Source: Anaerolineaceae bacterium
GTDB lineage: Bacteria; Chloroflexota; Anaerolineae; Anaerolineales; Villigracilaceae
Assembly: GCA_009885445.1 (NCBI GenBank)
Contig: VFKQ01000270.1
Coordinates: 1-36,879, forward strand
Length of the DNA: 36,879 nucleotides
Direction of reading: 5' to 3'
Under the pieces are notes generated by a model. It did not search any database and was not told where the DNA came from. It saw only the letters and a list, made by a program, of their open reading frames with translations. Shown here piece by piece: positions 12,643-19,781 of this stretch. Within the stretch, counting starts at the first letter, position 1; the number at the start of each line of letters is the position of its first letter. A program made the position numbers and the translations under genes.

Positions 12643-12672
12643 ATTATACCGTAACGAATCTGAATCGGTCAA
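12643..12672 (-). promoter_or_regulatory. sigma70-type promoter of rpmH operon
   Basis: TTGACC (12667-12672) and a perfect TATAAT (12643-12648) are separated by 18 nt on the minus strand. This is the clearest promoter ahead of the rpmH operon. A MITE-like element is inserted only 4 nt beyond its -35 box, counting the duplicated target. Confidence 0.85.
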
Positions 12673-12684
12673 ACCAATTTAGTG

Positions 12685-12826
12685 CTCATTGGGAATCTCC
12701 GTGATTAAATACTTTTGTACACGGATTATGCGGACGGGCACGGAAAAACACGGATTTTTTATTGCTTTTTCCGTGCGCGAAATCCGTGTCATCCGTGTAC
12801 AGAATAACGACAACTCGCAGAGAACT
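12685..12826 (+). mobile_element. MITE-like palindromic element, copy 1
   Basis: A 142-bp element without coding capacity. Its ends are imperfect inverted repeats (CTCATTGGGAATC... and, reverse complemented, AGTTCTCTGCGAGTTG...). The interior is made of inverted CACGGAT-type words. It is flanked by the perfect 9-bp direct repeat AATTTAGTG at 12676-12684 and 12827-12835, a target-site duplication. The right duplicate contains the stop codon of the TrkA gene, which is thus preserved. A related copy in inverted orientation is at 19566-19725. Confidence 0.85.
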
Positions 12827-12829
12827 AAT

Positions 12830-13525
12830 TTAGTGTTTGACTTCGTCGCGCTCAGGGTGACCGGCGGAGGAAAGCAGGTCGGAAAGTTGACGGGCGCTTT
12901 CGGGAGTGGTGATGGCCAGCACTTCGTCCCATTCCTGCAACTTGGTGGAGCCGCGCGGAAGAGTCACCTGACCATCGCGGATGATGGCCGCAATAATACA
13001 CTCGTCCGGCAGGCCGAGTTCCTTGAGCGGAGTGCCGATGGCGCGCGCGCCCTTCTCCACTTTTTCCTCCACGATCGAGTAGCGCCCGCGACGGATCTTG
13101 AGCAAGGTCATCATGTCGCCCAGTGACATTTCCTCTTGAATGAGGTGAGCGAACACGTCGGCCTGATTGAGAGCCACATCTACGTGAAAGTTTTCGTTAA
13201 ACAGCCAGGCATTGCGTGGATTATTGATGCGCGCAATGGTGCGCGGTACGCCAAACATCTTGCGCGACATGAAGCACAGACTCAGATTGGTTTCGTCGCT
13301 GTCTGTGCAGGCGGCCAAAGCGTGCGCCTGCTTAATGCCTGCGGCTTCGAGTACTTCTGGGTCGGTGAGGTTGCCCTGATAAATAGACTCGGTGGGCAGT
13401 TCGAGGTGCAGGCGCGCCAGAATGTCTGGGCGGTTCTCCACCAAACGAACCTTGTAATTTTCAGAAAGCAAAAGCGACGCAAGCTGGGCTCCGGTGCGTC
13501 CGCCGCCGGCAATGAGTACAAACAT
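12830..13525 (-). CDS. TrkA-family potassium channel/transporter regulatory protein
   Basis: A cytosolic RCK protein that gates a K+ transporter. Residues 1-125 are a TrkA-N Rossmann domain with the nucleotide motif GGGRTG (7-12) and acidic E29 ending the second strand. Residues about 145-215 are a TrkA-C domain, a fold that binds c-di-AMP in several characterised proteins. It starts 1 nt after the stop of the other TrkA gene and is third in the KimA-like operon. The C-terminal tail after residue 215 is short and hydrophilic. Its stop codon lies inside the target duplication of the MITE-like element. Confidence 0.9.
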   Translation of the reverse strand: MFVLIAGGGRTGAQLASLLLSENYKVRLVENRPDILARLHLELPTESIYQGNLTDPEVLEAAGIKQAHALAACTDSDETNLSLCFMSRKMFGVPRTIARINNPRNAWLFNENFHVDVALNQADVFAHLIQEEMSLGDMMTLLKIRRGRYSIVEEKVEKGARAIGTPLKELGLPDECIIAAIIRDGQVTLPRGSTKLQEWDEVLAITTPESARQLSDLLSSAGHPERDEVKH

Positions 13526-19552: not shown

Positions 19553-19565
19553 GTCTTGAATTATG

Positions 19566-19725
19566 GTTCATTGGGAGTTGCCGTGATTCTTGATTCTGTA
19601 CACGGATGACACGGATTTCACGGACGCTTCGCGCACGGAAAGAGCAAAAAAAATCCGTGTTTTTCCGTGCCCTTCCGTATAATCCGTGTCCAAAAAATTT
19701 TAATCATGACAATTCCCAGAGAGCC
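19566..19725 (-). mobile_element. MITE-like palindromic element, copy 2
   Basis: A 160-bp non-coding element whose reverse complement aligns over nearly its whole length with the copy at 12685-12826, including the core GGGCACGGAAAAACACGG. Its ends are GTTCATTGGGAGTTG and, reverse complemented, GGCTCTCTGGGAATTG. It is bounded by perfect 9-bp direct repeats TGAATTATG at 19557-19565 and 19726-19734. It is inserted 13 nt upstream of the -10 box of the histidine kinase gene. Confidence 0.88.
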
Positions 19726-19781
19726 TGAATTATGTTCGCGCCCACTTAGGGGAGGTTTGCAATTTGGTTTGAATTTGGAAT

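Follow-up and report, generated by a model that had tools for sequence, protein, structure and literature searches.

The window analysed here, a stretch of 36,879 nucleotides on contig VFKQ01000270.1 of an Anaerolineaceae bacterium (henceforth the source genome), contains a trkA-like gene and the rpmH promoter on the same strand, with a palindromic stretch lying between them (Table 1). The sequence AATTTAGTG was found at positions 12676-12684 and again at 12827-12835, exact on both sides of the palindrome as the initial annotation had described, and the stretch between the duplicates forms a single long hairpin with a DNA folding energy of -39.4 kcal/mol (z = -6.25 relative to dinucleotide-shuffled sequences). 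The chance of an exact 8-mer recurring at one given spacing is about 4e-5 in the window. The element proper, at 12684-12826, is 143 bp long and contains no transposase ORF. Its right duplicate does hold the trkA stop codon, and the gene was kept intact by the insertion, as had been claimed. On the opposite side, the near-consensus rpmH promoter (-35 box TTGACC at 12672-12667, -10 box TATAAT, 18-nt spacer, 11/12 matches) adjoins the left duplicate as noted previously, although the distance from the -35 box is 3 nt rather than the 4 nt first given.

Table 1 Coordinates of the two element copies and of neighbouring features in the window.
Feature	Position	Strand	Remarks
rpmH promoter	12643-12672	-	Kept in congeners; 3 nt from left duplicate
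Copy 1, left target duplication AATTTAGT, 8 bp	12676-12683		G at 12684 is a ninth identical base; single copy in the congeners' empty sites
Copy 1, left ISL3-type terminal inverted repeat GCTCATTGGGAATCTCCGTGATT	12684-12706	+	Shared with a complete ISL3-family IS of G037
Copy 1, core, CACGGAT word palindrome GTACACGG...CCGTGTAC	12717-12800		GxxExxY-associated repeat class
Copy 1, right ISL3-type terminal inverted repeat AGTTCTCTGCGAGTTGTCGTTATT (minus-strand reading)	12803-12826	-	
Copy 1, right target duplication AATTTAGT	12827-12834		Holds the trkA stop codon, 12830-12832, minus strand
trkA-like gene (TrkA_N and TrkA_C), intact	12830-13525	-	Ends within the right duplicate
Copy 2, left target duplication TGAATTAT	19557-19564		
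Copy 2, 161-bp element with the ends of copy 1 and a CACGGAT core at about 19598-19691	19565-19725	+	Absent from the congeners' orthologous intergenic region
Copy 2, right target duplication TGAATTAT	19726-19733		

The trkA-rpmH junction was found without the element in four congeners (G001, G004, G005 and G006). When the window flanks were joined with a single copy of the duplicate, they aligned through the junction of all four genomes, where AATTTAGT is present once, the rpmH promoter is conserved, and the outer ends (the shell) and the core are missing alike. Short, devoid of a transposase gene, flanked by a target duplication with corresponding empty sites, and represented by common-ended copies at unrelated places, the stretch at 12684-12826 is a non-autonomous insertion, i.e. 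a MITE. That it is instead an immobile structure serving the trkA-rpmH region as regulator or terminator, as the strong hairpin adjoining the promoter might suggest, is highly improbable and, as an original function, refuted by the empty sites: four congeners lack the element yet conserve the promoter, a terminator scan placed no site inside the element, and related copies lie at many unrelated places. The element may nonetheless have a secondary regulatory effect. In two further congeners, G007 and G002 (loci L130 and L131), the same junction bears a different insertion composed of CACAAAG, CACGAAG and CGCAAAA words.

The ends of the element, GGYTCWYTGGGARTYGCCGTGAT, are those of a complete ISL3-family IS in a relative, G037 (contig C57, 208-1579). 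This IS is 1,372 bp long, has the same ends facing inward and encodes an ISL3-family transposase (PF01610, E = 6.8e-65) that is 64% identical to the transposase adjoining the same end in G012; ISL3 transposases directly adjoin this end in both G012 and G040. No exact duplication was present at the flanks of the complete IS (ttacaatt/tcggaaaa). A search with the end sequence gave matches in 10 of 41 genomes, and the reversed control pattern gave none. Elements were then counted by pairing inward-facing ends across all DNA retrieved, which yielded 19 distinct elements. Target duplications of 8 bp are exact in 14 of these, contain one mismatch in two and are lacking in two; the window copy, also among the 19, matches at eight bases provided that a single base was lost from one end.

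The duplication postulated in the initial annotation is therefore real, and a transposase with matching ends was found in G037, but the proposed length of 9 bp does not hold for the elements sharing these ends. Since those have 8-bp duplications, the target duplication is most likely the 8-bp AATTTAGT with a ninth base matching by chance. That ninth base is a G in copy 1 and in copy 2, and the elements also begin with G; compared with the GG of the family, the element at 12684-12826 most likely lacks one terminal G. Target duplications of 8 bp are the length known for ISL3 elements. The shared ends, the 8-bp duplications and the complete IS in G037 together identify the window element as a non-autonomous ISL3-type element and, with the four empty sites, bear out its original assignment as a MITE. 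The source genome gave no match to the PF01610 ISL3 transposase (assembly 92% complete, 404 contigs), and the mover was thus deduced from the relatives; judged from sequence, the element was presumably moved by an ISL3 transposase. Copies are only 74-89% identical, and recent movement is consequently not claimed. The same ISL3 shell holds other, unrelated palindromic cores in G010, G012, G006 and on another contig of the source genome (G000:C340).

The CACGGAT palindrome is present as described. It is not the defining part of the MITE, and is also found apart from these ends. Searches with the whole element as query retrieved groups of copies with a common CACGGAT palindrome and differing ends; the core also occurs within a different shell with GAGAGCGTTTCTTAAGT ends and without any shell. 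Copies lacking the expected duplications, which the initial annotation had named as a refutation, do occur; in these the core has other ends or no ends at all. The family with GAGAGCGTTTCTTAAGT ends is a second MITE family with the same CACGGAT core (L006, L007, L008, L010, L011, L012, L196 and L357), and has TAA or TTA at each flank of several copies, in which it resembles IS5-type elements. In congener G005, CACGGATT arms lie to either side of a GxxExxY gene (L145), and a gene-less palindrome in the source genome (L013) is built of the same words, so that the word class of the core is that of the GxxExxY-gene arms in the genus. The CACGGAT palindrome is a module separate from the MITE and belongs to the GxxExxY-associated class of word arrays. 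A viral origin of the core was not supported, with a 20-base core pattern found in no viral contig and GxxExxY relatives in just three. A gene-less core is held by both G002 and G007, a pair compared in the search for an empty site. At L395 (G000:C293:22700-23300) a palindrome-like stretch is chimeric, its left arm consisting of CACGGAT words and its right arm of words of the CACAAAG type.

In elements with both ISL3 ends and a CACGGAT core, the junctions between shell and core are alike, reading GTGATTAAACCTTTT/GTACACGG and CCGTGTAC/AGAATCACGG or close variants. Because such junctions are present in several genera, the joining of shell and core looks old and probably happened once. A competing reading makes the CACGGAT palindrome itself the mobile unit, with GxxExxY or some other nuclease as its mover, and the ISL3-like ends incidental target sequence. 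The occurrence of the core in two unrelated shells and without a shell, and of its word class beside GxxExxY genes, would fit this reading, which we nevertheless consider very unlikely: the duplications of the window copies lie directly outside the ISL3 ends and not outside the core, 8-bp duplications likewise accompany elements that combine these ends with other cores, and shell and core are missing together from the empty site.

GxxExxY genes (TIGR04256/PF13366, PD-(D/E)XK nuclease-like) were examined during the search for a partner gene of the core. For each gene, the 200 bases upstream were compared with the reverse complement of the 200 bases downstream, and arms were scored as present at a local alignment score of at least 34. 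Inverted word arms were detected at 34 of 41 GxxExxY genes in the relatives, as opposed to 0 of 121 control ORFs of the same loci. A sample from named genomes (80 loci, spread over about a dozen or more bacterial phyla plus one archaeon) gave a similar picture, with 62 of 77 testable GxxExxY genes and 1 of 35 control ORFs passing the threshold; the single archaeal locus is without arms. Mixed pairs, in which the upstream and downstream flanks came from different loci, reached the threshold in 16% because the words are partly common between loci. Each arm is an array of short words (CACGGAT, CGCAGAG, CACGAAG and CACGAAT among them), the word varying by locus. Units of gene and arms measure 418-532 bp (n = 23), and no target duplication was recognisable at their ends. 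The predicted fold of GxxExxY (mean pLDDT 87) matches PD-(D/E)XK nucleases weakly; the best match was 4ic1 (SSO0001, a Cas4 nuclease), with a probability of 0.95 but an E value of only 0.09. Conserved D, ExK and QxxxY residues agree with this fold match, and a sequence-profile search with GxxExxY matched no solved structure.

Empty sites were found for whole GxxExxY units as well. One unit separates radA from the following gene in Bacteroides finegoldii, and the two genes are adjacent in Parabacteroides distasonis; another, in Sphingomonas parapaucimobilis (L342), separates fabD from fabG, and these are neighbours in S. paeninsulae. Neither gene of the fabD-fabG operon is apparently damaged by the unit within it. 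On contig C71 of the source genome (L178), a unit with CACGAAG words occupies a position at which G001, G002 and G003 have none. At the orthologous site a gene-less CGCGAAG-type palindrome was found in G006 (L385, C39) and a gene-less CGCAGAG-type palindrome in G004 (L380, C21); a site bearing three differing word types is either an insertion hot spot or one at which both arms changed in concert. Matches to the arms of the C71 unit occur at more than 25 further sites of the source genome, many at over 90% identity. Most of the 14 matches inspected are gene-less palindromes, and one combines a left arm of CACGGAT words with a right arm of the CACAAAG type.

The words were further found to track the protein subfamily. 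GPGLLE-type proteins are accompanied by words ending in AG, and GxGF-type proteins by words ending in AT, the class to which the CACGGAT core of the window belongs. This rule held in 16/16 and 11/12 classifiable loci of the relatives (p = 6e-7); the named loci were collected by a scan for GPGLLE-type proteins, which places the AT class outside their test. On a tree of 69 proteins, word class required 2 changes compared with a shuffled mean of 10.1, and 0 of 500 shuffles were as low. The pattern is a clade-level one with few independent switches and thus demonstrates a long joint descent of arms and gene rather than many separate events.

As regards the core, it could be argued that word-array palindromes and GxxExxY genes are mere neighbours and that the palindromes land anywhere. 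Word palindromes are indeed abundant in these genomes, where they are also dispersed without a gene, and the PF05635 family likewise has inverted arms, of different words. We consider mere proximity unlikely, as matched arm pairs flank most GxxExxY loci and almost never control ORFs, word class follows protein subfamily in both the locus counts and the tree, and entire units of gene and arms have empty sites.

The window feature is best described as a two-layer, non-autonomous ISL3-type MITE with a captured word palindrome, to which we assign a probability of roughly 0.86. The outer layer, about 23 bp per end, would constitute the recognition sequence of an ISL3-family DDE transposase; action of this enzyme would account for the 8-bp target duplication, which is observed together with the ends and the empty sites. 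The inner layer is a CACGGAT word-array palindrome of the kind observed to form the arms of GxxExxY units and the dispersed gene-less palindromes. Most likely this palindrome was captured once between two ISL3 ends, as the conserved shell-core junctions suggest, after which the composite dispersed as a MITE across several genera of the family. The insertion was tolerated because it fell into the gap separating the trkA stop codon from the rpmH promoter, and because the stop codon was restored by the duplication.

Taken as a MITE, the element adds a new, well-documented member to the ISL3 group. The more important part is its interior, which displays modular exchange between two kinds of repeat. 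Judging by the arms and their descent, GxxExxY may mobilise word palindromes. A broader proposal, to which we give somewhat less than even odds, is that the GxxExxY gene and its arms form a compact class of mobile element (~420-530 bp) that crosses phyla, with a PD-(D/E)XK nuclease acting on its own arms and with arm words and protein subfamily changing together; gene-less palindromes, including the core of this MITE, would then be its non-autonomous offspring, of which some have been taken up between the ends of conventional transposons. The observations provide a strong, testable link between the widespread, uncharacterised, nuclease-like GxxExxY family and palindromic word repeats in many phyla. 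If causal, this link would account for a large group of intergenic palindromes that have so far lacked an explanation, and would establish a new means by which a nuclease gene persists and spreads. No link of the GxxExxY gene to repeats was found in the literature searched, which excluded preprints and most subscription journals.

Among known systems, ISL3 insertion sequences and their MITE derivatives share with the window element ends starting GG(C/T)TC, 8-bp duplications and a complete PF01610 relative with the same ends. The window element differs in having no transposase and in its interior CACGGAT palindrome, which is unrelated to the IS and common to other shells. REP/BIME sequences with their RAYT (TnpA-REP) genes resemble the GxxExxY system in combining dispersed gene-less palindromes with a small gene flanked by the same palindromes. 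The partner here, however, is a PD-(D/E)XK GxxExxY protein and not a Y1 HUH transposase, and the arms are arrays of short words, with the word varying by locus. RAYT was itself rejected as the partner of the core, inverted flanks being found at only 3 of 27 Y1_Tnp genes and consisting of unrelated words.

A small gene between inverted arms of short words is also seen in intervening sequences (IVS) with an S23 gene (PF05635), of which the Coxiella IVS is described as a 428-nt selfish element (PMC4990558). In the present data, 22 of 30 PF05635 genes (L199-L228) have inverted arms of heptamer-like words unlike those of GxxExxY; the inverted-arm design is therefore not unique to GxxExxY, and the words go with the gene family. 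These four-helix-bundle IVS/S23 genes number up to 22 per genome in the relatives. The IVS differ from the GxxExxY units in protein and in words, and the known IVS lie in 23S rRNA genes whereas the present elements are dispersed. Short-word arrays in intergenic regions of several phyla have been described for the TAACTGA heptamer repeats of Beggiatoaceae, with their mobility discussed (MacGregor 2015, PMC4679880), in an article in which a term search showed GxxExxY and S23 to be unmentioned. In contrast to the inverted arms reported here, the TAACTGA repeats are mostly direct repeats.
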